Below are positions 2,912 through 15,749 of a stretch of DNA of 64,000 bases, one piece after another. The notes beneath the pieces are model-generated. The model ran no database searches, was not told the origin of the DNA, and saw only the letters and a program-made list of their open reading frames with translations. The first letter of the stretch is position 1; each line of letters starts with the position of its first letter. Made by a program: the position numbers and the translations under genes. This DNA comes from Candidatus Thiodictyon syntrophicum (GTDB taxonomy: Bacteria; Pseudomonadota; Gammaproteobacteria; Chromatiales; Chromatiaceae): the NCBI RefSeq assembly GCF_002813775.1, contig NZ_CP020370.1:4613501-4677500 (forward strand). Direction: 5' to 3'.

Positions 2912-3670
2912 ATGGCCAACGGCACGCATACGTTAGAAGTCTGGGGCGACCTTGCCTGCTTCACCCGCCCGGAGATGAAGGTGGAGCGCTTTTCTTATCC
3001 CGTCATCACCCCATCGGCAGCCCGGGGGATCTTCGACGCGATCTACTGGGACGCGCGCCGCGACGGCGACCGGGTGCGACCCTATTTCCACTGGCAGGTC
3101 ACGCGCATCGAGGTGCTGGCATTGCCCCGCTATATCGCGCTACGTCGCAATGAGGTCAAGGACCGGGTGCCTGGGACCGCCGTGCTCAACAAGTGGATGA
3201 AGGGCACCACCAACCCCGAGCCCCTCTGGGCCGACGGCGGCAAGGACGAACTCGGCACCGACCAGAAGGGGCGTACCCAGCGCCAGACCATGGCGCTGAA
3301 ACAGGTCCGCTACCGGCTCAGCGCCCGAATCGCCCCCAAGCCCGCCTTCAGTGCCGACCAGGGCGCCATGAACAGCCAGTTCCAGCGGCGCGCCCGTGCC
3401 GGCAAGTGCTTCCAGCAGCCTTACTTTGGCTGCCGCGAATTTCCGGCCTTCTTTGAGTACATTGAAGACCCCGCGGCCAGCACGCAACCGCCGATCCTGC
3501 TCGACCAGCACCTGGGACTCATGCTCTACGACGTTTTCGACCTGTCCCGGGACATCGTGAAGGATGGCGACCCGCCATTTATCAGCCTGTTCGATGCCAC
3601 CCTGTGCGGCGGGGTCATGGAGGTTCCAGCGTTCGACAGTTCAGCCGTAAAGAAGCCGGGGAGGGTCTGA
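2912..3670 (+). CDS. cas5c: Cas5c (Cas5d), crRNA-processing endoribonuclease of type I-C
   Basis: A 252-residue RAMP-fold protein. In subtype I-C there is no Cas6; Cas5 itself cuts the repeat at the 3' base of its hairpin and stays in Cascade. The start chosen is ATG 2912, preceded by CAGGAGG, rather than an in-frame TTG at 2861. Recognisable features are the N-terminal LEVWGDLACFTRPE strand, Y45 in AIYWDARR, which lies where the catalytic tyrosine of this family is found, and QRQTMALKQVRYRL around residue 125. The frame is intact and ends 2 bases before cas8c, so translation is probably coupled. As the repeat nuclease, it is also the protein expected to recognise the solitary repeat before cas4. 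Confidence 0.94.
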   Translation: MANGTHTLEVWGDLACFTRPEMKVERFSYPVITPSAARGIFDAIYWDARRDGDRVRPYFHWQVTRIEVLALPRYIALRRNEVKDRVPGTAVLNKWMKGTTNPEPLWADGGKDELGTDQKGRTQRQTMALKQVRYRLSARIAPKPAFSADQGAMNSQFQRRARAGKCFQQPYFGCREFPAFFEYIEDPAASTQPPILLDQHLGLMLYDVFDLSRDIVKDGDPPFISLFDATLCGGVMEVPAFDSSAVKKPGRV

Positions 3671-3672
3671 TC

Positions 3673-4524
3673 ATGCTCCAGCAACTCGCCGCCTACGCCG
3701 AAGCCCACCTGACCGAGTCCGAACCGGGCTTCAAGTCCCGCGAGGTCCGCTGGTCAGTCGAACTGGCCGCCGATGGTCGTTTTCTGAACGTCCTCCCCTT
3801 GGGCGACGGTAAGCGCGGTCAGGAACTCAGACGCTGCCCCGACATGCACAGCATGAACGCCGGGGGGCGTGCCCACTTCCTGGTGGAATCCTGCCAATTT
3901 GTCTCTCTCCTGATTAAGGGTGACGAGCCTCCCGACGACAAGACCCGCAAGCGCCACGCCTATTATGTGGATCTGCTGCGTCAGGCGGCCGACACCGTCC
4001 CGGCGCTGCTTCCACTTGCCGAGTTGGTGGCGGCTCCAGAGCACATTGCCGCGGTCCGTGCGGCCTTGGTCGCGCAGAAGGCGAAACCGACCGACTGGAT
4101 GACGTGGCGCATTGCCGCTGCGGACCCGCACGATTCCCACGAGGTGCAGCGCTGGTGGCGCGATTGGCGCCGGTCGGATCTGAGCGTCGCGGCACCGCAG
4201 TCGACCCCTGGGCCGGCTGGTGACGGGGCGCCTGCGGGCACCATGCTGTGCCTCCTCACCGGCACGAATGTTCGCCCACTAGCCACTCAGCCAAAGATCA
4301 CGGGGCTGTCGGGCGTCGGCGGACTTGCAATGGGCGATGTGATGGTCGGTTTCGACAAGTCATCCTTCGGTTCCTACGGCCTGGACCAGTCAGCTAATGC
4401 AGCGATGGGCGAGGAGGCCGTCCAGCGGTATGTCGATGGACTCAATGACCTGATCCGCAACCATAGCCGCAAACTTGCCAATGCCTTGGTCGCCCATTGG
4501 TATAAGGACAACATTGCCCCGGCC
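3673..4524 (+). pseudogene. cas8c: cas8c (csd1), 5' part, interrupted by IS
   Basis: The first 284 codons of Cas8c/Csd1, the large subunit of type I-C Cascade that reads the PAM and recruits Cas3. The start is ATG 3673 (MLQQLAAYAEAHL). The fragment is clean up to DNIAPA, where an insertion sequence begins at 4525. Direct repeat GCCCCGGCC at 4516-4524 recurs at 6442-6450. Joining 4524 to 6451 gives an uninterrupted frame reading DNIAPA-DDLFALLMS and a protein of about 596 residues, the usual Csd1 length. The absence of any other lesion suggests the insertion is recent. As it stands, translation runs into the IS and no full Cas8c can be made. Confidence 0.93.
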
Positions 4525-6441
4525 GGCCTTGATCATAACTCCGCCCACCCCCGTCACGCCGCCACCAGCGTCAGCGCCGGGCGCGTGACCGGTCGCGGTC
4601 GCCGCCGCCGCGCTGGCGGCGGCAGACCGACGTGCGCCAGCACGTGGTCAAACAGCGCCGGGTGAGCCCGCCCGAAGAAGCGTTCGGCGGCGGTGGTGCC
4701 ATCGGGGCGGCGGACATAATAGTTGTGCATGGCCGTCAGGGCCGCCAGCTTGCGGTCACTGAGGCGGTGACTGCCGTGATGATAAAGCGACAGGTGGCCG
4801 TTGCGCCCTTCCACACAAGAGCTACTGCGCTGGAACAGATCGGCGCAACCGCCGGCGACCGCCTCGATCTGTGCGCGGCGCGTGGGCGCCAGGGCCTGCA
4901 GCGGATGCGTCGGCTGGCGCAAGGGTTCGAGCAACTGTGCGCTCAGCGCCGTGAGTCGATGGCGGGTGTCGGCGTGGCTGCTGCGCCCCGCCACCCGCGC
5001 CAGGTAGAGGGCCGGAATCAACTGGGTCAGAACCGCCTGCTCCACGTCGGGCGCCAGGTCCAGGGCGTCGACCCGGGTCTGGACGCGCGCCCAGAAGAAC
5101 GCCAGGGTGGCCAACCACGGCACGGTCAGGCGCTGCGCCTTGGCGAGGTGTGCGCGGGCGCGTGCGGGCAAGTCGGCCGCGTCGGCGAGGTGTGCAAGGC
5201 GTGCCCAGACGTCGGCGAAGCGGGCGGCGACCTGCGCCACGGATTGCACCTGTCCGCTCACGAGGTCGTACGGGTGATACAGCAGGCCCAGTTCACGGAT
5301 CTGCTCACGGGCTTGCGTTTGGCGTGTCAGGGCCTGGGTCTGCTCGGCTTCGGCCGCGACCAGTTCAGTTAAGGCCGCGTCGCTGCGGGCCGCGAAGGCC
5401 GGTGGTCGGCCGCGCGGATGAGGGACTTGCGCGTCATACGCCCGTTGCGCGGCCTGCGCCGCGTCCAGCGGCGCCTGGGCCGCCGCGACGGCGGCGCTGG
5501 CCTGTCTGACCTGGCGGTCCAGGTGCAGACTGGTCCCCTTGGACACCTCATACTGAGCATGGAACAGGTCCGGGGAATGCTGGGCGCCGAGGTCTTGCTC
5601 GTGGTGGTGCCGTAACGCCTTGGCTTCATCACTGGTGCCTTGGATGACGGTCACCGGCATCCCCGCCAGCGCCGTCTCCAGGGCCTGCGTCCAGGTCGCC
5701 GCCGTGCGATCGGGCGCGTACTGTTCCAGCAGAATGAAATTCGACACCGGCTCAATGGCGACCAGGCAGACGTCGGGGTGAAAGGTTTCATCCTCAGCGA
5801 CCGTCAACTCCTGCGGCGGCATGCCGACAGCGAGGGCGACCCGCTGTTCCTGCGCCTGTTTGGCCACGGCCTCCTGCACCTGCACCGTCAGCGCATACTG
5901 GCTGCCATAGGAGGCCCCGACGAGCGCCGACAAGCCGCTCAGCTCCAGGAACTCACACACCATCCGCACCCCGGCGCCGGCCCGCAGGGTGATGATCAGA
6001 TGCATCACCACGACCAGTTGGTGCAGCCACTGCGCCCCCGCCGGGGTCGCCAGGCACGCCGCCACCTCCACCGGCAACCCCGCCAACGGCGCCGCCGCGC
6101 GCCAGCCGCGCAACGTGCTGCGCGCCACCCCCAACTCCGCCGCCACCTGCCGCAGCGGGTGTCCCTGCGCCAACTGGCCAGCGGCGCGCCCGCATTGCTC
6201 CGCCCGCTCCAAGCGGGTGCAGTGCTTCACCGTGCACCGCCGCGCGCCGGCCAGGCACGGCCGGGTGGCGAATGCCTGGCATCTGGGCTAAAGTCAGTGG
6301 CGGCAGGACCTTCGGACATTGTTGACTACCCCGGGTTAGTTTGCACTTCCAAGGGTATGAAAATTCGGAGGTCCTGCCAACCTCCCCGACACCGATGACC
6401 GAGTTCAGTGCTTGGTCTTGGGCGGATTTATGATCAAGGCC
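4525..6441. mobile_element. Insertion sequence A (1917 bp) inside cas8c
   Basis: The ends are 21-base inverted repeats with one mismatch: GGCCTTGATCATAACTCCGC at the left end and the complement of GGCCTTGATCATAAATCCGC at the right. A 9-bp target duplication GCCCCGGCC flanks the element at 4516-4524 and 6442-6450. It carries one transposase on the minus strand. The same termini, slightly diverged, bound MITE-like elements at 178-314, 31350-31525 and 37629-37896, and an almost identical left end stands alone at 36543. The IS family cannot be named with confidence from the sequence alone. Confidence 0.92.
4554..6230 (-). CDS. DDE-type transposase of insertion sequence A (DUF6399-like)
   Basis: A 558-residue transposase encoded antisense to cas8c. 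Residues 8-45 look like a helix-turn-helix (QVAAELGVARSTLRGW). Candidate catalytic acids are D147 in AEDETFHP, D201 in GTSDEAKAL and E474 in CVEGRNGHLSLYHHG. The last motif, together with AMHNYYVRR and TAAERFFGRAHP, is what I associate with DUF6399 transposase-like proteins; this family name comes from memory. The reading frame is full length and undamaged, so the element may still be active. ATG 6230 was taken as the start, about 210 bases inside the right end of the IS. Confidence 0.85.
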   Translation of the reverse strand: MKHCTRLERAEQCGRAAGQLAQGHPLRQVAAELGVARSTLRGWRAAAPLAGLPVEVAACLATPAGAQWLHQLVVVMHLIITLRAGAGVRMVCEFLELSGLSALVGASYGSQYALTVQVQEAVAKQAQEQRVALAVGMPPQELTVAEDETFHPDVCLVAIEPVSNFILLEQYAPDRTAATWTQALETALAGMPVTVIQGTSDEAKALRHHHEQDLGAQHSPDLFHAQYEVSKGTSLHLDRQVRQASAAVAAAQAPLDAAQAAQRAYDAQVPHPRGRPPAFAARSDAALTELVAAEAEQTQALTRQTQAREQIRELGLLYHPYDLVSGQVQSVAQVAARFADVWARLAHLADAADLPARARAHLAKAQRLTVPWLATLAFFWARVQTRVDALDLAPDVEQAVLTQLIPALYLARVAGRSSHADTRHRLTALSAQLLEPLRQPTHPLQALAPTRRAQIEAVAGGCADLFQRSSSCVEGRNGHLSLYHHGSHRLSDRKLAALTAMHNYYVRRPDGTTAAERFFGRAHPALFDHVLAHVGLPPPARRRRPRPVTRPALTLVAA

Positions 6442-6450
6442 GCCCCGGCC

Positions 6451-7389
6451 GATGATCTATTTGCACTCCTGATGAGTATGGAGACCGAAGAGCAGACCGA
6501 GGCCACGGCGCAAGCCGCGGTCCGCCGCTTACTGGACGCGATCCGCTCCGGTGAACGTGCCGACTTGGGCGACAACCGCTATTTTGCTTTGACCCTCTCC
6601 GGCGCCGCCGGACGCGTCATGGTACGGGACTGGATGGAAGGCCGGTTTGAACACCTGGCCGGCCACATTGCCGCCTGGTTCGCCGATCTTGCCATCGTCG
6701 CCCGCGATGGTCACGCGTTTGCCCACGACCCCAAGTTCATGGCGGTCTGTGGCGCGCTGGTCCGTGAACTCAAAGACCTGCCCGCCCCGATCGCCGCTAC
6801 CCTGTGGCGCGTCGCAGTCCAGGGTTTGCCGATCCCCCGGTCCCTGCTGGCACTCGCACTGGCCCGCTTGCGCGCGGAGCGTGTGGACAAAGACCAACCC
6901 CCGATCAATCACGCCAGGATGGGCCTTATTCGGGCCTACTACGTTCGACTCACTCCAGGAGGTGACGCCACCATGACTGCCTATCTCAACCCGGACCACC
7001 CGGCCGCCGCCTATCACTGCGGGCGCCTGCTGGCCGTCTTCGCCAACCTGCAACGCGCCGCCTTGGGGGAGGTCGGGGCCGGGGTGGTCCAGCGCTATTA
7101 CGCGGCTGCCAGTCAGACCCCCGGCCTCATTCTCGGCCGACTGGTCGCGAATTCTCGCAATCACCTGGGCAAGCTCGACGCCAAGCTCGCCTGGTGGTTT
7201 GAGAACCAGTTGGCCGAGGTCATGGGCCGCTTGGGTGACGGCGCCCCACGCATTCTCGATCTCGAAGGCCAGGGTCTCTTCGCGCTCGGCTATTACCAGC
7301 AGCTTGCTGCCCTGCGCGCCGGGCACAAAACCGAAGCTGGCGATCCGGAATCCCCCGCGACCATCGCTCCAGCAGACGGAGATCAATAA
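6451..7389 (+). pseudogene. cas8c: cas8c (csd1), 3' part, downstream of IS
   Basis: The last 312 residues of Csd1, in frame with the 5' part once the IS and one copy of the target duplication are removed. Typical Csd1 stretches are present: RYFALTLSGAAGRVMVRDW, the ALALARLRAER helix, and the C-terminal CGRLLAVFANLQRAALG and [13 protein letters not shown]. The C-terminal helical bundle acts as small subunit in type I-C. An in-frame ATG at 6430 lies inside the IS end, so a truncated C-terminal protein could in principle be translated, but no good ribosome binding site is evident. The stop TAA (7387-7389) overlaps the cas7c ATG as TAATG. Confidence 0.92.
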
Positions 7390-8164
7390 TGAATACGCTC
7401 CAGAACCGCTATGAATTCCTGTACCTTTTCGATTGTGAGAACGGCAATCCCAACGGCGATCCGGATGCGGGTAACAGCCCTCGCATCGACCCCGAGGACA
7501 TGCACGGTTTGGTGTCCGACGTTGCCATCAAACGGCGGATTCGCAACTACGTGCAGACGGCCTTCAACAACACCGCGCCCAACGCCATCTTCGTGGAGCA
7601 CGCAACCAACCTGAACAAGCCCATCACCGCCGCCCACATCGCCACCGGTGGTGCCCCCGGTGGCGGGGGCAATCGCACCCAGGTCAACGCGGCGCGCAAA
7701 TGGATGTGCGACCAGTTCTACGACGTGCGTACCTTTGGTGCCGTCATGTCGACCGGGGCAAACGCCGGACAGGTACGGGGACCGGTGCAGGTCGCCTTCT
7801 CGCGGTCCCTGGACCCCATCCTCCCCATGGATGCATCCATCACGCGTATGGCGGTCGCAGAGAAGGTACCCGGCGCCACCACGATGGCCGATTACGAGCG
7901 GTGGGAGACCAATCAAGAGGAAGACAAACTCCGCACCATGGGACGCAAATCTCTCATTCCCTACGGCCTCTACGCCTGCAAGGGCTTCGTCTCCGCCCAC
8001 CTGGCCCAGGGCACCGGCTTTTCCGACGAGGACCTGGCCCACCTCTGGGAGGCGCTGCTCGGCATGTGGGACCATGACCGCTCTGCTTCCAAGGGCGTCA
8101 TGTCCTGCCGCGGACTCTATGTCTTCAAGCACGTCGGGACCGACAGCGACGAGACCCAGCGGGT
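7389..8164 (+). pseudogene. cas7c: cas7c (csd2), 5' part, interrupted by IS
   Basis: The first 258 codons of Cas7c/Csd2, the backbone subunit that polymerises along the crRNA. Family features are clear: [17 protein letters not shown] near the N terminus, the RRIRNYV helix, FGAVMSTG and [15 protein letters not shown]. The frame is intact to DSDETQRV, where a second insertion sequence enters. Removing 8165-10122 and one copy of the duplicated ACCCAGCGGGT restores DETQRVRQAMLGCAPAQRM and a protein of 328 residues. In the present sequence the ORF instead runs 19 codons into the IS before a stop, so Cas7 lacks its last 70 residues. Confidence 0.93.
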
Positions 8165-10122
8165 AGGGTGTTCAATATTTCACCTATATCGCAAATTAAA
8201 TTCATGCAGTTTTCGTGTTTGACACAAAATCAATGAGAGCACGCCGACGCCGGGCCAGCATCGACGCACCGAGGTGCGTTGTCGCCCACTGCTCGACATC
8301 AATAGTACGCACCGATTCCATCGCCTCCTGAATCAACGGAGTCGCCAGGTCGGCGATGAAGGCAGGAATCGCAAGCACCAGCTTACCGATCTCCTTGAGC
8401 GGCCCCCTGGTGGTGAAGCATTTGTATTTCCCGAAGACCGATTCGATGATATCGGAGGAGGCCAGCCAGACACTATCAGTCGGGATCTTGGCGGATTCCA
8501 ATGCGACCTTCGCGAGAATCTGTTGGGTAAAGGCCGCCGCCCGTGGGGTGAGCGTTGACGGCGGTGGCAGCGTGGCCTGGAGTGATTCTTGGGAGCCCTG
8601 CTGAAGACCCGTGGATTTGAGATGCGACTGAATCAGCTTGGATTGCGCCATCATTTGCGCGTAATCCACCAGGTCATCCCGGTAGGACAGTAGCCAGGCA
8701 AAGCCGTCAAGGAAGCGACTGTACCCGGCGTCCGCTTGCTGCCAGAACACATCGTCGAGCGTATCACTCTCGAGGTCTGAGTGTGTCTGCAGTGCCTGGC
8801 AAAAAGCCGCCCGGTCGGGATAGCGAATGCCGACGATGGCCCGCAATGGGTGCGCCCGGGCGGCGCCGAACCGCGCGCACAGGTGCTCCCATGCCGGCCA
8901 CTTCAGGACGTATTGCGCGCGGATCGCGCTGAAGTCGCCGCGATCATGGTAGGCGAGGACGCGTTGTGCCCACCGCACATGGACATCCAGATTCATAAAA
9001 CGCGCCTTGATGCGCTGCCGAGGCGGCAGCAAGAAGGCGAGATCGGTCTGCTGCAAGGACGACCACGCGCGGCGACAGTGCGCCAGCAAGGACTCCCAGC
9101 GCGCATCTCGGCCCATCTCGGCCTTGAGCCGCGTCGCAATAAGATGCGATATATCATAAGTATAGACGCAGGCAGTGGCGTGCTCCTGAAACAAGGCGAT
9201 GCCCTTGTGCAGGTCGCTGCCGTGGTCGGCAACGATCTGGACTGGTGGACCGGTGCGTTGCGCAACGCGCCTGAGCACTTGTGCGACCCACGCTCCCGTG
9301 CTGTGTGTTGTGATCTCCACGGCCAGCACCTGCATGGCGCCGTGACACGGGCTGTAACCGCTCTGGGCCAGTGCACTCACCGGAATACCCAGGATGACGA
9401 GGCACTTGGACGCCCCCAAGGCGATCGTATGGTCGGCGACGTAGATCCAATCCGTGCGCCATTGCGGTTGGCGATTGAGAATCGCGAGACCGCAGCGATA
9501 GACCCAGTTGAGCACGGTGGTGTGGGCTGGCGCCGCCACCGGGAGTGACGCGCCGAACAGATTCAATACCCGCGCCACCCCGCGGCTGCCGAGCCCCGCG
9601 TGCAGATACAGCCGCATGGTTAACTGCATGACCATGACCGAATAGTGATGGCCGACCGGCGGGGACAGCGCAAGGTGTGGTGGCTCATCCGCTGGTTCGT
9701 CATCCGCCGGCGCCGCGGCCTCTTCGGCTCCCGTTCGCGCACGCTCCGCCTTTAGCGCACGCGCCTTCCACTGCGCGCGGCTGTGCTCCAGATCCCGAAT
9801 CTTGACCTCCGCGGCCCGCAGGCGCTGCTGCCGCTCCAACGCTTTCGCCTTCCAGGCATCACGTGATCGCTGGAACAGGTTGGCCAGACGGCTCGCTGGG
9901 CTCTTGAATGCATTCATCACGTCGTGCGTGCTCCGGCAAGGCGGTCAGATCACCGCGCCAGTAGACTGATCAAGCGTTCGTCGTTTGTCAACGGCTTGGC
10001 ATGAGAAAGTGGCGCACGCGTCATCGTACTCCCCCAAGCACAGAACCGACCGCCGGGCCTTCCAGGCAACACGCTTCTTGCATCGACTTTTCGGCGCCTT
10101 TTTAGGTCAGATTGAACACCCT
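8165..10122. mobile_element. Insertion sequence B (1958 bp) inside cas7c
   Basis: Inverted termini AGGGTGTTCAAT at 8165-8176 and its complement at 10111-10122 bound the element. The flanking direct repeat ACCCAGCGGGT (8154-8164 and 10123-10133) is itself nearly palindromic. The exact duplication could therefore be anything from 3 bp, with 16-base termini, to 11 bp. One transposase lies on the minus strand. The termini and the transposase are unrelated to those of insertion sequence A, so two different IS families hit neighbouring effector genes. Confidence 0.9.
8202..9920 (-). CDS. DDE-type transposase of insertion sequence B
   Basis: A 572-residue transposase, antisense to cas7c. It begins with a basic coiled-coil-like segment (residues 17-65, rich in K, R, E and A). 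An RNase H-like core follows: D163 in [12 protein letters not shown]232 in [12 protein letters not shown], and E493 in [13 protein letters not shown]. These three acids are my assignment of the DDE triad. The family name is not certain; long single-ORF transposases with an IIES-FGKYK motif occur in unclassified IS groups. The frame is undamaged. Only about 35 bases separate its stop from the left IS end. Confidence 0.82.
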
Positions 10123-10133
10123 ACCCAGCGGGT

Positions 10134-10344
10134 GCGCCAGGCCATGCTCGGATGCGCCCCGGCGCAGCGGATGTTGGACTTCTCGCAACCCGGCCGGGAA
10201 CAAGCCAATGCCATCATTGAGATCGGCCATCAGCCAGGCTTACAGGGCTCCCCGCGCACCTTCGCCGATTATGTGGTGACGCCCAACCCAGAGCGCTTGC
10301 CCGCCGGGGTCAAATTGCTGATCGACGGCAAGCCTGCGGGGTAA
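10134..10344 (+). pseudogene. cas7c: cas7c (csd2), 3' part, downstream of IS
   Basis: The C-terminal 70 residues of Csd2 in the correct frame to rejoin the 5' part: RQAMLGCAPAQRMLDFSQPG, then GSPRTFADYVVTPNPERLPAGV, which matches the usual Csd2 ending (SFDDY-V-LPAGV). It has no start codon of its own with a ribosome binding site. Stop TAA is at 10342-10344. It is followed by a 90-base gap to cas4, unusually long for this operon, which contains a CRISPR-repeat-like sequence. Confidence 0.9.
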
Positions 10345-10386
10345 CTCCGCAGCGAACGGCAGCGATTGACAGAGACCCTCCCGATC

Positions 10387-10423
10387 GCATCGCCCGGCCG
10401 AGTGGCCGGGCGTAAATTGAAAC
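10387..10423 (+). promoter_or_regulatory. Solitary CRISPR-repeat-like hairpin in the cas4 5' leader
   Basis: This 37-base stretch matches the array repeat at 32 of 37 positions in the same orientation. The 9-bp stem (CGCCCGGCC / GGCCGGGCG) is identical to the array repeat. All five differences fall in unpaired bases: two in the 4-base loop (AATT to GAGT) and three just after the stem (CGG to TAA). The conserved 3' tail ATTGAAAC follows. The cas4 ribosome binding site AGGAG starts at 10424, the very next base, and ATG is at 10435. Cas5c would be expected to bind or cut here at the 3' stem base, leaving an 11-base handle joined to the cas4 Shine-Dalgarno. Regulation is inference; the similarity and position are direct observations. 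Confidence 0.85.
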
Positions 10424-10434
10424 AGGAGACAGAT

Positions 10435-11094
10435 ATGAACCTGGACGTGCTCCCTGTTCCCGCGGTCGAAACACCCGACCCCGTCAACCTCTCGGCCCTC
10501 AATCAATATGCCTATTGCCCCCGGCGCTGCGGACTCATCTACCTCGACGGCGAGTTCGAGCAGAACATTCACACCGCCCGCGGCAATGCCGAGCACGAGC
10601 GGGTGGACCGTGCCGCCCATGTCGCCGGGCATGACGGCGCGCGGGTGGAATACGCCCTGCCGGTGTGGAGTGAACGCTGGGGCCTGATCGGCAAGTGCGA
10701 CGTGGTGGAGTTCTGGCCGGACGGCACCATCTACCCGGTGGAGTACAAACATGGGCCGAAAAAGAAGCATCTCAACGACGACCTGCAACTCGTCGCCCAG
10801 GCCCTATGCCTTGAAGAGATGTTCGGCCGTGCGATCACCCAGGGCGCCATCTACCACGCCACCAGTCGTCGGCGCCGCGAGATTGCCATCACCGCGGAGT
10901 TACGCCGCTCGGTGGCGCAAACCGCGGACGCCATCCGCACCATGCTCGCATCAAAGCGCCTGCCGGCGCCCATCAACGATCGGCGCTGTGATCAATGCTC
11001 GCTCAACGCAATCTGCGAGCCGAAAATGACGACAGCGTTGCGTCTGCAGCAGGCGGCGAGGGACTCACTCTTCGACCCGGATGCGCCGGTCTGA
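10435..11094 (+). CDS. cas4: Cas4 exonuclease (adaptation)
   Basis: A 219-residue Cas4, a RecB-like nuclease with an iron-sulfur cluster that selects PAM-proper prespacers and works with Cas1-Cas2. Four cysteines flank the domain: YCPRRC near residues 26-30 and CDQC...C near residues 195-205. RecB motifs are GLIGKCDVVEF, YPVEYKHG and QLVAQALCLEEM. The start is ATG 10435 with AGGAGA six bases upstream. A TTG at 10366 would translate the repeat-like sequence and is less likely. The gene is intact, but it lies downstream of two antisense-oriented insertion sequences, so its transcription may no longer depend on the cas3 promoter. Confidence 0.95.
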   Translation: MNLDVLPVPAVETPDPVNLSALNQYAYCPRRCGLIYLDGEFEQNIHTARGNAEHERVDRAAHVAGHDGARVEYALPVWSERWGLIGKCDVVEFWPDGTIYPVEYKHGPKKKHLNDDLQLVAQALCLEEMFGRAITQGAIYHATSRRRREIAITAELRRSVAQTADAIRTMLASKRLPAPINDRRCDQCSLNAICEPKMTTALRLQQAARDSLFDPDAPV

Positions 11095-13021: not shown

Positions 13022-15749
13022 GCATCGCCCGGCCAATTGGCCGGGCGCGGATTGAAACAAAAAAACGCTGAGCTTGCCGAACATCTCAGGTCGGGCATCG
13101 CCCGGCCAATTGGCCGGGCGCGGATTGAAACACCGTGGCCATTGTGCCAGTCGCCTTGCCTTACCGGGCATCGCCCGGCCAATTGGCCGGGCGCGGATTG
13201 AAACAGAGGACTACGGTGAGGAGTCTGACTTCTTCAAGGGGGGCATCGCCCGGCCAATTGGCCGGGCGCGGATTGAAACCCCACCTCGCTGAAGAACCGG
13301 AACATGGAGATGTTGGGCATCGCCCGGCCAATTGGCCGGGCGCGGATTGAAACAAAGGACCTAGCATGACCACCACCGACACCACCCGCGGGCATCGCCC
13401 GGCCAATTGGCCGGGCGCGGATTGAAACACGGCAACCCAGGTGCAGGCAGGCACCACTTTGCGGGCATCGCCCGGCCAATTGGCCGGGCGCGGATTGAAA
13501 CACCCGGTGCAGCTCCTGACCGGCAATCCTTAGACGGGGCATCGCCCGGCCAATTGGCCGGGCGCGGATTGAAACTTTAGGATCAAAGATGAAATTTCGC
13601 TTGCCGGTTGGGCATCGCCCGGCCAATTGGCCGGGCGCGGATTGAAACGCTTTGGATACCCTCAGCAAGCCAGCGTTCGATCTGGGGCATCGCCCGGCCA
13701 ATTGGCCGGGCGCGGATTGAAACACTTGTCCATTGTGATATCTGTTCTTGCCTTTCGGGGCATCGCCCGGCCAATTGGCCGGGCGCGGATTGAAACTTAA
13801 TATGCCGCTCATCAATCAGACCACGCGCGCGCAGGCATCGCCCGGCCAATTGGCCGGGCGCGGATTGAAACAGTGTCGGAAGAACCATCAGCCCACGCGC
13901 CCGGAGCGGGCATCGCCCGGCCAATTGGCCGGGCGCGGATTGAAACACCAGATAATCACCGCTTAAGCGGACCTCATCGCGCGGGCATCGCCCGGCCAAT
14001 TGGCCGGGCGCGGATTGAAACCTGCGACCGTTCCACAGCACCACCCAACGACCACGGGCATCGCCCGGCCAATTGGCCGGGCGCGGATTGAAACGACATA
14101 ATAGGGCTATCCGGCCGCCCCTCTTGGCGGGGCATCGCCCGGCCAATTGGCCGGGCGCGGATTGAAACCGCACTGGGCTGTTGATCGATCCGCAGGAGGC
14201 GCTGCATCGCCCGGCCAATTGGCCGGGCGCGGATTGAAACATTCTGGCGGCTCTATCGATACCCCGGACGCAGCAGGCATCGCCCGGCCAATTGGCCGGG
14301 CGCGGATTGAAACATGCTCCGATCGGCTGCAGGCGCACTTCGAGGCGGCATCGCCCGGCCAATTGGCCGGGCGCGGATTGAAACGGATCAGTCCACGCGG
14401 GGGCCGACGAGGTAGGGTCGCATCGCCCGGCCAATTGGCCGGGCGCGGATTGAAACGCCTCACCGTGCCGACCGGCGGGCCTGACCATCTGCATCGCCCG
14501 GCCAATTGGCCGGGCGCGGATTGAAACGCCTCACCGTGCCGACCGGCGGGCCTGACCATCTGGCATCGCCCGGCCAATTGGCCGGGCGCGGATTGAAACG
14601 CGACTGCCTTCAGGGCATCGGCCGCCCGCTGCCCGCATCGCCCGGCCAATTGGCCGGGCGCGGATTGAAACTTATGACTCAAATTGTTTATGAGATTATT
14701 CCGATAGCATCGCCCGGCCAATTGGCCGGGCGCGGATTGAAACACCGCGGACGGCGGCACGATGGAGTTGGTCGGGGCGCATCGCCCGGCCAATTGGCCG
14801 GGCGCGGATTGAAACCCGCTGAGCGTCAACGGCACCCTCGTTGCGCCGAGCATCGCCCGGCCAATTGGCCGGGCGCGGATTGAAACCGGTCGGCCCCGGG
14901 ATGAGCGACCGGCTACGGCGCGCATCGCCCGGCCAATTGGCCGGGCGCGGATTGAAACATGGTATGGCTCTCTCTCTCTCTATGCTATGGATGGGCATCG
15001 CCCGGCCAATTGGCCGGGCGCGGATTGAAACGACCGCCCCGGCCCGCGCCAGGGCGATCAGGGCCGGCATCGCCCGGCCAATTGGCCGGGCGCGGATTGA
15101 AACTCCATCATGAATAGGCTGCTCATTGGGTTGCCTCGGCATCGCCCGGCCAATTGGCCGGGCGCGGATTGAAACCGGTAGCCTGTCCGTTTCAATCGCA
15201 GTTTGAATATGGCATCGCCCGGCCAATTGGCCGGGCGCGGATTGAAACAGTTCGCAGGTACGCGCGATGTATGACCGCGGTAAGCATCGCCCGGCCAATT
15301 GGCCGGGCGCGGATTGAAACATTTACTGTCCGATATCCAGGACGTGCGCGAACGGCATCGCCCGGCCAATTGGCCGGGCGCGGATTGAAACCGGCTGGGA
15401 CCCGACGCCTACCCCCGGAACCGACCGCATCGCCCGGCCAATTGGCCGGGCGCGGATTGAAACTCCGGCCACGGCCTCTTGCTTGGTCGCGCCCTCGAGC
15501 ATCGCCCGGCCAATTGGCCGGGCGCGGATTGAAACCTCCTGTCCCGCGACCCAATCCCAGGGCAGCAGGCGCATCGCCCGGCCAATTGGCCGGGCGCGGA
15601 TTGAAACATGACCTGCCTCCGCTGTGGGCCGCCGGACAAACGCATCGCCCGGCCAATTGGCCGGGCGCGGATTGAAACGGTCGGCGCAGTATGACACCGA
15701 GCTGGCAATCGAGCATCGCCCGGCCAATTGGCCGGGCGCGGATTGAAAC
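13022..15749 (+). CRISPR. Type I-C CRISPR array, 38 repeats and 37 spacers
   Basis: The 37-base repeat begins GCATCGCCCGGCCAATTGGC and ends GCGGATTGAAAC. Every copy reads as identical, including the last one, at 15713-15749. It has a 9-bp stem around AATT and the 3' ATTGAAAC tail expected of I-C crRNA handles. The leader lies on the cas2 side. Measured from 37-base repeats, spacers 1-15 are 36-38 bases and spacers 16-37 are 34-36. Fourteen of the fifteen repeats from 2 to 16 are preceded by GG, against one of the 22 later ones (repeat 28). Spacers 20 (14457-14490) and 21 (14528-14562) carry the same sequence, differing by one terminal G. No protospacer assignment is possible from this window alone. 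Confidence 0.98.

Follow-up and report, generated by a model that had tools for sequence, protein, structure and literature searches.

An important question raised by this locus is what a single CRISPR repeat is doing directly in front of a cas4 gene, i.e. whether it serves the message that it precedes or is just a trace of recombination. The window, i.e. the whole stretch of 64,000 nucleotides of Candidatus Thiodictyon syntrophicum (NZ_CP020370.1) that was analysed, contains a type I-C locus with the order cas3, cas5c, cas8c, cas7, cas4, DUF433, cas1, cas2 and array, with the following features.

2912-3670, + strand: cas5c, uninterrupted, encoding A where most aligned I-C Cas5 proteins have K
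3676-4512, + strand: N-terminal part of cas8c (PF09709 positions 16-269)
7389-8164, + strand: N-terminal part of cas7, cut by an insertion sequence
10134-10344, + strand: C-terminal remnant of cas7, matching the C-terminal part of the congeners' cas7
10345-10386, + strand: remainder of the cas7-cas4 gap, which holds ACCCTCCCGATC
10387-10423, + strand: single (ectopic) copy of the I-C CRISPR repeat, by its identity to the array repeat
10391-10412, + strand: hairpin of the lone repeat by folding, 9-bp stem CGCCCGGCC/GGCCGGGCG, loop GAGT
10413-10423, + strand: 11-nt tract matching the crRNA 5' handle, with AA here for GG in the array (TAAATTGAAAC)
10424-10428, + strand: Shine-Dalgarno sequence of cas4, AGGAG, abutting the repeat
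10435-11094, + strand: cas4 (Cas_Cas4, PF01930), ATG at 10435
13022-15749, + strand: I-C CRISPR array, 38 identical 37-nt repeats and 37 spacers

The lone repeat is a full-length copy of 37 nt on the array strand and agrees with all 38 array copies at 32 of 37 positions, as the initial annotation had claimed for the sequence upstream of the cas4 ribosome binding site. Alignment also bears out its statements that the 9-bp stem is unchanged, with all five differences in the loop (two of four bases, A14G and T16G) or just 3' of the stem (three adjacent bases, CGG to TAA), and that the cas4 Shine-Dalgarno sequence begins on the next base. Unchanged as well are the 5' GCAT and the 3' ATTGAAAC. Eleven nucleotides separate the repeat from the cas4 ATG, six of them lying between AGGAG and ATG. 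In the genome of 7.74 Mb, a pattern search allowing up to three mismatches found 39 places, i.e. the 38 array copies and the lone one, and none for the reversed pattern; other non-array sequence in the first 18 kb reached an identity to the repeat of at most 54% on the + strand and 62% on the - strand. A covariance model (R1), built only from repeats of another family, gives the lone repeat a score of 24.9 bits with an E of 2.3e-5; its next match outside the array in the 64 kb has an E of 0.31, and at 19 other loci it finds arrays and array-end copies only. With Rfam CRISPR-DR9 (RF01322), the gathering score is reached by the 38 array copies and not by the lone repeat. The resemblance of the lone repeat to the array repeat is far above chance.

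At the level of RNA structure, the 90-nt gap between cas7 and cas4 (10345-10434) outfolds 200 of 200 shuffled sequences (z -4.39), and the proposal that the repeat hairpin forms the 5' leader sequence of cas4 is supported. A consensus scan of the gap found neither a promoter nor a terminator. Since folding predicts that the cas4 Shine-Dalgarno sequence is itself largely base-paired to other sequence (its probability of being unpaired is 0.01-0.53), a role of the hairpin in keeping this site open is unsupported. The suggestion that the conserved pairs reflect selection on structure stands in so far as the stem is intact, but five independent random changes would all spare the 18 stem bases with a p of about 0.03 (C(19,5)/C(37,5)), or about 0.14 if the three adjacent changes were one event, and stem sparing in one copy would be a weak sign of such selection.

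The operon around this leader is damaged. The remainder of cas8c is found at 6412-7389, beyond an insertion sequence with a 10-bp direct repeat, and the insertion in cas7 is flanked by the 11-bp direct repeat ACCCAGCGGGT (8154-8164 and 10123-10133). Because both genes are interrupted and a genome search found no second Cas7 and no second Cas8c C-terminal part, the locus probably makes no interference complex. The element inserted in cas7 (8165-10122) is seemingly multi-copy, with 11 further partial genome matches to its end. Within the array, the adjacent spacers 20 and 21 (14457-14562) differ by a single extra base and have matches of 20/20 bases in locus L072 and of 17-21 bases in other loci, all within cas3; by reading, their target would be the Walker A region of cas3. 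GG ends 14 of the 15 spacers nearest the leader (36-38 nt), and later ones measure 34-36 nt; in its newer part, the array seems to have an effective repeat that extends further in the 5' direction. Neither a comparison of the array with phage records nor one of the gap with plasmid records gave a match.

How far the lone repeat is shared was followed in relatives, with 80 loci collected by Cas1 and others by Cas4, the Cas4 search giving matches in 14 of 55 relatives and in 54 of 210 genomes from the order. Besides the window, 87 loci were examined for cas genes and array repeats, and 70 loci, the window included and L031 omitted as a duplicate of L038, had both a readable array and cas4; at 16 of the listed loci called I-C-type the Cas7 match is only 27-30% identical and the effector subtype thus uncertain. 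A stretch at least 70% identical to the locus's own repeat within 1.5 kb before cas4 occurs in the window alone, i.e. in none of the other 69 I-C-type loci, and the next-best identity, 0.68, lies inside a cas7 match. An array-independent scan for stem and handle also gave the window the top combined score (8/10 handle bases, 9/9 pairs), with L073 reaching 8/10 handle bases but having a weaker stem. The congeners G001 and G004 have a 51-nt gap with a different hairpin, CCTTCCCGG..CCGGGAAGG, and two Thiocapsa gaps contain a third one, AGGCGTTGA..TCAACGCCT. As all 69 other loci lack the repeat and the congeners have another hairpin, the lone repeat appears to be a lineage-specific acquisition. 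The initial annotation had held that its proposal would suffer if related I-C operons had no repeat in this gap and Cas5c did not act on the leader RNA; the former part is what these 69 loci present.

Each of the operons of the window, its two congeners and the two Thiocapsa, which are the five closest, has a strong gap hairpin, with z from -1.85 to -4.39, and a perfect 8-bp stem, albeit in only three sequence types, against an expected 0.0097 per 70 nt for perfect 8-bp stems with 3-5 nt loops in these loci; the short gaps of L108 and L065 contain no such stem. So the gap slot would seem to keep a hairpin while the sequence of the hairpin turns over. That the congeners' hairpin might be an old leader repeat that has covaried was considered and set aside, with support ranging from borderline to absent by random-hairpin tests. 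Compared with its own repeat, the G001 hairpin is equalled by 542 of 20000 random hairpins (913 of 20000 under a GC-richer null), by 20 of 250 real hairpins of these loci and, in a separate shuffle test of repeat-likeness, by 140 of 5000 shuffles; compared with the lone repeat, 2131 of 20000 random hairpins score as high. The counts of random hairpins scoring as high against the repeat are 7932 of 20000 for G004 and 13887 of 20000 for Thiocapsa. Judged by these scores, neither the congener nor the Thiocapsa hairpin would be demonstrably repeat-derived, with G001 borderline. Also rejected were the similarity of ACCCTCCCGATC in the left flank to the congeners' left hairpin arm (not significant, 2075 and 3991 of 20000), a repeat-like stretch before the cas7 Shine-Dalgarno sequence of Imhoffiella (25/38, a weak fold and, with chance matches at 0.65-0.68, noise) and an inverted pair ATTGAAAC/GTTTCAAT in L108, one arm of which is cas7 coding sequence.

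The gap region has other inhabitants. Toxin-antitoxin-like genes lie between cas7 and cas4 in 59 of the 61 loci with more than 150 nt there (called by similarity to ten representatives, nine of which have a Pfam match), the types being ParE with Unstab_antitox, HicA/HicB, DUF433 with DUF5615, PIN and nucleotidyltransferase; the window and G001 differ in having DUF433 between cas4 and cas1. In L052, a degenerate repeat (81%) is found outside the array at 2795-2831, about 390 nt before the cas3 match, and is a further candidate for an ectopic repeat near the start of a cas operon.

Single repeats in leader position also occur in a second gammaproteobacterial family. When 369 genomes of the class were searched for ATTGAAAC with a Shine-Dalgarno sequence and ATG behind it, 48 places in 40 genomes were found versus 3 for the reversed pattern, and among 30 such loci read, an 8-9 bp hairpin lies directly before the motif in two, the window and genome G407, where the mdh leader contains an I-C-type repeat of 37 nt. 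This is the only one of 27 mdh leaders read in the family to have a repeat; its promoter-side sequence is common to the congener G277, the leader of which differs. Since the G407 genome holds no further copy of its 37-mer within three mismatches and the neighbourhoods of its three Cas1 genes contain other repeats or none and no I-C array, the G407 leader repeat probably works, if at all, without Cas5c. Across the family (39 genomes), arrays and scattered single copies were found in at least 18 genomes. A census of the 32 genomes without the main arrays, with a pattern that, unlike the one that found the G407 repeat, demands neither Shine-Dalgarno sequence nor ATG, gave 64 matches in 21 genomes versus 2 for the reversed pattern; 14 of the 64 are one array and 50 are non-array. 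Five non-array matches were left out as coding look-alikes (G609:C60, G407:C39, G277:C64, G600:C239 and G587:C71), and 49 unique copies among the matches listed, 45 from the census and four from array-bearing genomes, were read. Of these, 45 were kept, three having no hairpin and one, L270, being set aside by eye as coding. Five array-bearing contigs of the family were read. I-C cas genes are present on four, one of them lacking a cas1 or cas2 match; the array repeat is GATTCGCCCGCCGTAATTGGCGGGCGCGGATTGAAAC on three of the four, and the remaining one ends in copies of GATTCGCCCGCCGTAATTGGCGGGCGCGGATTGAAAC. On the fifth contig, the stretch read contains an array and no cas genes. Because the contigs with I-C cas genes carry arrays of GATTCGCCCGCCGTAATTGGCGGGCGCGGATTGAAAC, the leader repeats of this family are regarded as I-C-type.

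Of the 45 copies, 40 are followed in sense, at a distance of 0-145 nt (no more than 48 nt in 35 cases), by a gene of a recognised family, and five (L235, L242, L250, L259 and L268) have no recognised gene behind them. The genes include acpP (in five species), pntA (three), ppdK and yciK (two each) and, once each, gyrB, rpoC, rpsB, rpmI, hfq, hisS, dnaK, mdh, sucA, ilvC, argG, ribF, narI and plsY. These counts take orthologues separately; grouped by gene family, there are about 22, five of which have a leader repeat in at least two species. For 20 families there is an NCBIfam match (several of the proteins are partial and score under the cut-off, CcoG by a wide margin), and two (LivK-like and PilT-like) are named by reading only. 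The ten copies that precede ccoP run into the 3' end of the upstream coding sequence and probably go back to a single event. Within 40 nt, a new ORF opens with its ATG in 30 of 46 cases in sense and 11 of 46 in antisense, compared with 245 of 4000 random positions, in a test that still includes L270 and the ccoP group. TATAAT-like boxes are found 13-25 nt upstream of some copies (pntA, gyrB, ribF), so that these messages could start near the hairpin. In front of a LivK-like gene, L262 (G605:C131) has two leader repeats 18 nt apart with GCGGATTGAAA just upstream, an arrangement that resembles a mini-array with very short spacers in a leader.

The stems of this set vary in a correlated manner, with changes on both sides in six of eight pairs and a covariation score of 0.285 versus 0.230 in shuffles. 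Scores as high arose in 1 of 500 shuffles when the window copy was joined to 30 leader copies outside the ccoP group, in none of 500 for the first 40 sequences and in 0-5 of 500 overall; the alignment of 40 omits L229, L249, L264, L265, L270 and one L262 copy and includes all five copies without a recognised gene. The search pattern partly fixed the stems, which limits variation at those positions. The lone repeat itself is absent from the congeners, the covariation being that of the other-family set only.

With its single, full-length sense copy, its hairpin kept and its position shortly before a start codon, the repeat before cas4 fits this leader pattern, and the second-family set strengthens the case for single I-C repeats as leaders. 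The reading that we favour, tentatively and with belief and doubt close to balance, is that an ectopic repeat was captured as a cis-acting leader hairpin, probably independently of Cas proteins. An array repeat would have been copied into the cas7-cas4 gap, in the lineage of the window only as far as relatives show, and at a site that, judging by the same relatives, already held a hairpin. The copy would now form the leader hairpin before cas4-DUF433-cas1-cas2 and act in cis as a stable stem-loop at the junction of the cas7 and cas4 portions of the message, where it would protect or trim message ends without a need for Cas5c. What we count in favour is the copy itself—lone, sense, full-length and abutting the Shine-Dalgarno sequence—together with the strong gap hairpin of all five closest operons, the placement and covarying stems of the second-family copies and the presence of I-C operons and same-type arrays in the second family; what counts against is that the repeat is private to one genome, with no conservation signal in the window, and that leader repeats are rare outside the second family, with a hairpin at only 2 of the 30 motif-bearing loci. 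As the leader set lies in a different family, its link to the window is one of analogy only. The simplest account of both sets would be that I-C repeats are copied from arrays and sometimes kept as leader hairpins.

The initial annotation had suggested a specific role of Cas5c, which would bind or cut the leader hairpin and so could cleave, stabilise or repress the message; the level of cas4-cas1-cas2 would then be set by free Cas5c or by competition with array transcripts. Consistent with this, the stem is identical to that of the array repeat, ATTGAAAC is kept and cas5c is uninterrupted in the same operon. In a review (PMC3890593), Cas5d is described as reading the hairpin together with the 3' single-stranded part and cutting at the hairpin base, which leaves an 11-nt tag. 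The GG of the nGGATTGAAAC handle, at the 3' base of the stem, is present in 70 of 70 readable arrays (the window's own included, one array being unreadable), but is replaced by AA in the lone repeat. In a Cas5c alignment, A or S precedes MN in the window, its two congeners, Thiocapsa roseopersicina, Imhoffiella and one Thiocystis, whereas most other aligned I-C Cas5 proteins have K, followed by Y, F or H, and six betaproteobacterial-type members of the window's own Cas5c group keep the K. The structures 3kg4 and 7kha have K-H at the corresponding position, a pair that we take to be catalytic. With GG changed to AA and the lysine absent, cleavage of the leader by Cas5c is less likely, and binding may still occur. 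Arrays are present at several of the loci with a lysine-less Cas5c (window, L038, L035, L041, L043 and L048), and one may ask how pre-crRNA is matured there; these array-bearing kin share the change and may still cut. Further points against CRISPR-specific control are that Cas8c and Cas7 are broken with no second copy found in the genome, that the other I-C-type loci tested have no such leader, that the repeats of the other family precede housekeeping genes and that G407 has its leader repeat with no I-C array near its three Cas1 genes. Overall, control by Cas5c strikes us as improbable.

The main rival is a neutral scar, i.e. recombination or template switching with the array would have pasted a functionless copy, whose intact stem would be due to chance or to a young insertion. 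Absence of the repeat from both congeners and all 69 other I-C-type loci is as expected for such an event, as are effector genes that were already broken and changes numbering just five, three of them adjacent; moreover, most second-family leader repeats are also seen in one genome only, so that turnover without function is possible there too. A scar would not lead one to expect a copy that is full-length, in sense and exactly abutting the Shine-Dalgarno sequence, the same placement at core genes elsewhere with covarying stems, or a gap hairpin in all five nearest operons, and we consider it rather unlikely. A repeat-capped self protospacer, in contrast, concerns an origin and is compatible with either function: a spacer from the cas4 start would have recombined back and the repeat replaced the PAM, the site no longer being foreign. 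TTC, the PAM reported for a type I-C system (PMC8406640), precedes the homologous stretch in G001, and CTC that in G004; the repeat replaces this position in array orientation, its sharp ends fit recombination with a self-derived spacer, and cas8c and cas7 are disrupted in the same genome. Yet none of the 37 window spacers matches the site, 2218 array spacers gave a single own-locus match (17 nt, outside cas genes), TTC occurs by chance once in 64, and leader repeats elsewhere are left unexplained, all of which makes this origin an outside chance. Scarcely credible, finally, is a CreR-like guide, i.e. a crRNA-like RNA consisting of handle and cas4 start that would direct Cascade to a cas promoter. 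Cas-regulating RNAs of this kind are reported for types I-B, I-E and V-A (PMC13131331), but the lone repeat has no second repeat beside it, the 24 nt that follow it find a best other match of 17/24 in the window, and the effector genes are broken.

Returning to the captured leader hairpin, a broader version, in which single I-C repeats are recurrent portable mRNA leaders of core genes, selected for their hairpin and with cas4 as one case, is conceivable but doubtful. If the core-gene leader repeats are real regulatory parts, CRISPR arrays would supply ordinary genes with ready-made RNA hairpins, and housekeeping messages could come within range of the repeat nuclease; should Cas5c indeed read these leaders, they would form a CRISPR-linked regulon of host messages. 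Scattered single repeats, which are passed over by array-finding programs, thus become a testable question. The literature yielded no description of single repeats as 5' leaders, though absence from print is not certain, and the earlier remark that no repeat had been described as a leader of the cas4 kind agrees with this.

Among known systems, tracr-L, the long form of tracrRNA in type II, is a repeat-derived RNA that directs Cas9 to repress a promoter; the lone repeat shares the tie between a repeat-derived RNA and cas control, but there is no such guide at the cas4 leader. CRISPR-derived regulatory RNAs have reportedly been treated by Shmakov and others in 2023. Stabilizing stem-loops at 5' ends or between genes, such as the ompA leader, act through structure, with a strong hairpin near the Shine-Dalgarno sequence or between genes; unlike the lone repeat, they are not derived from CRISPR repeats. 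The ectopic repeats of CreTA and CreR, like the lone repeat, are partly degenerate non-array copies, single or paired (PMC9458426 and PMC13131331); they make crRNA-like guides for Cascade, whereas the lone repeat is an untranslated leader, a single repeat with no good guide target and no match to a promoter among the targets sought in the window. Solitary repeat units or Racr likewise mimic array repeats, a tested type I-C case lying downstream of an AcrIC5 homologue (PMC10651486), but they are viral and inhibit the effector; the lone repeat is chromosomal and lies within the cas operon, and its pattern has no exact match in a viral contig collection. The ectopic repeats of the papers cited here make guides or inhibit effectors, and use as an untranslated leader would be different from both.
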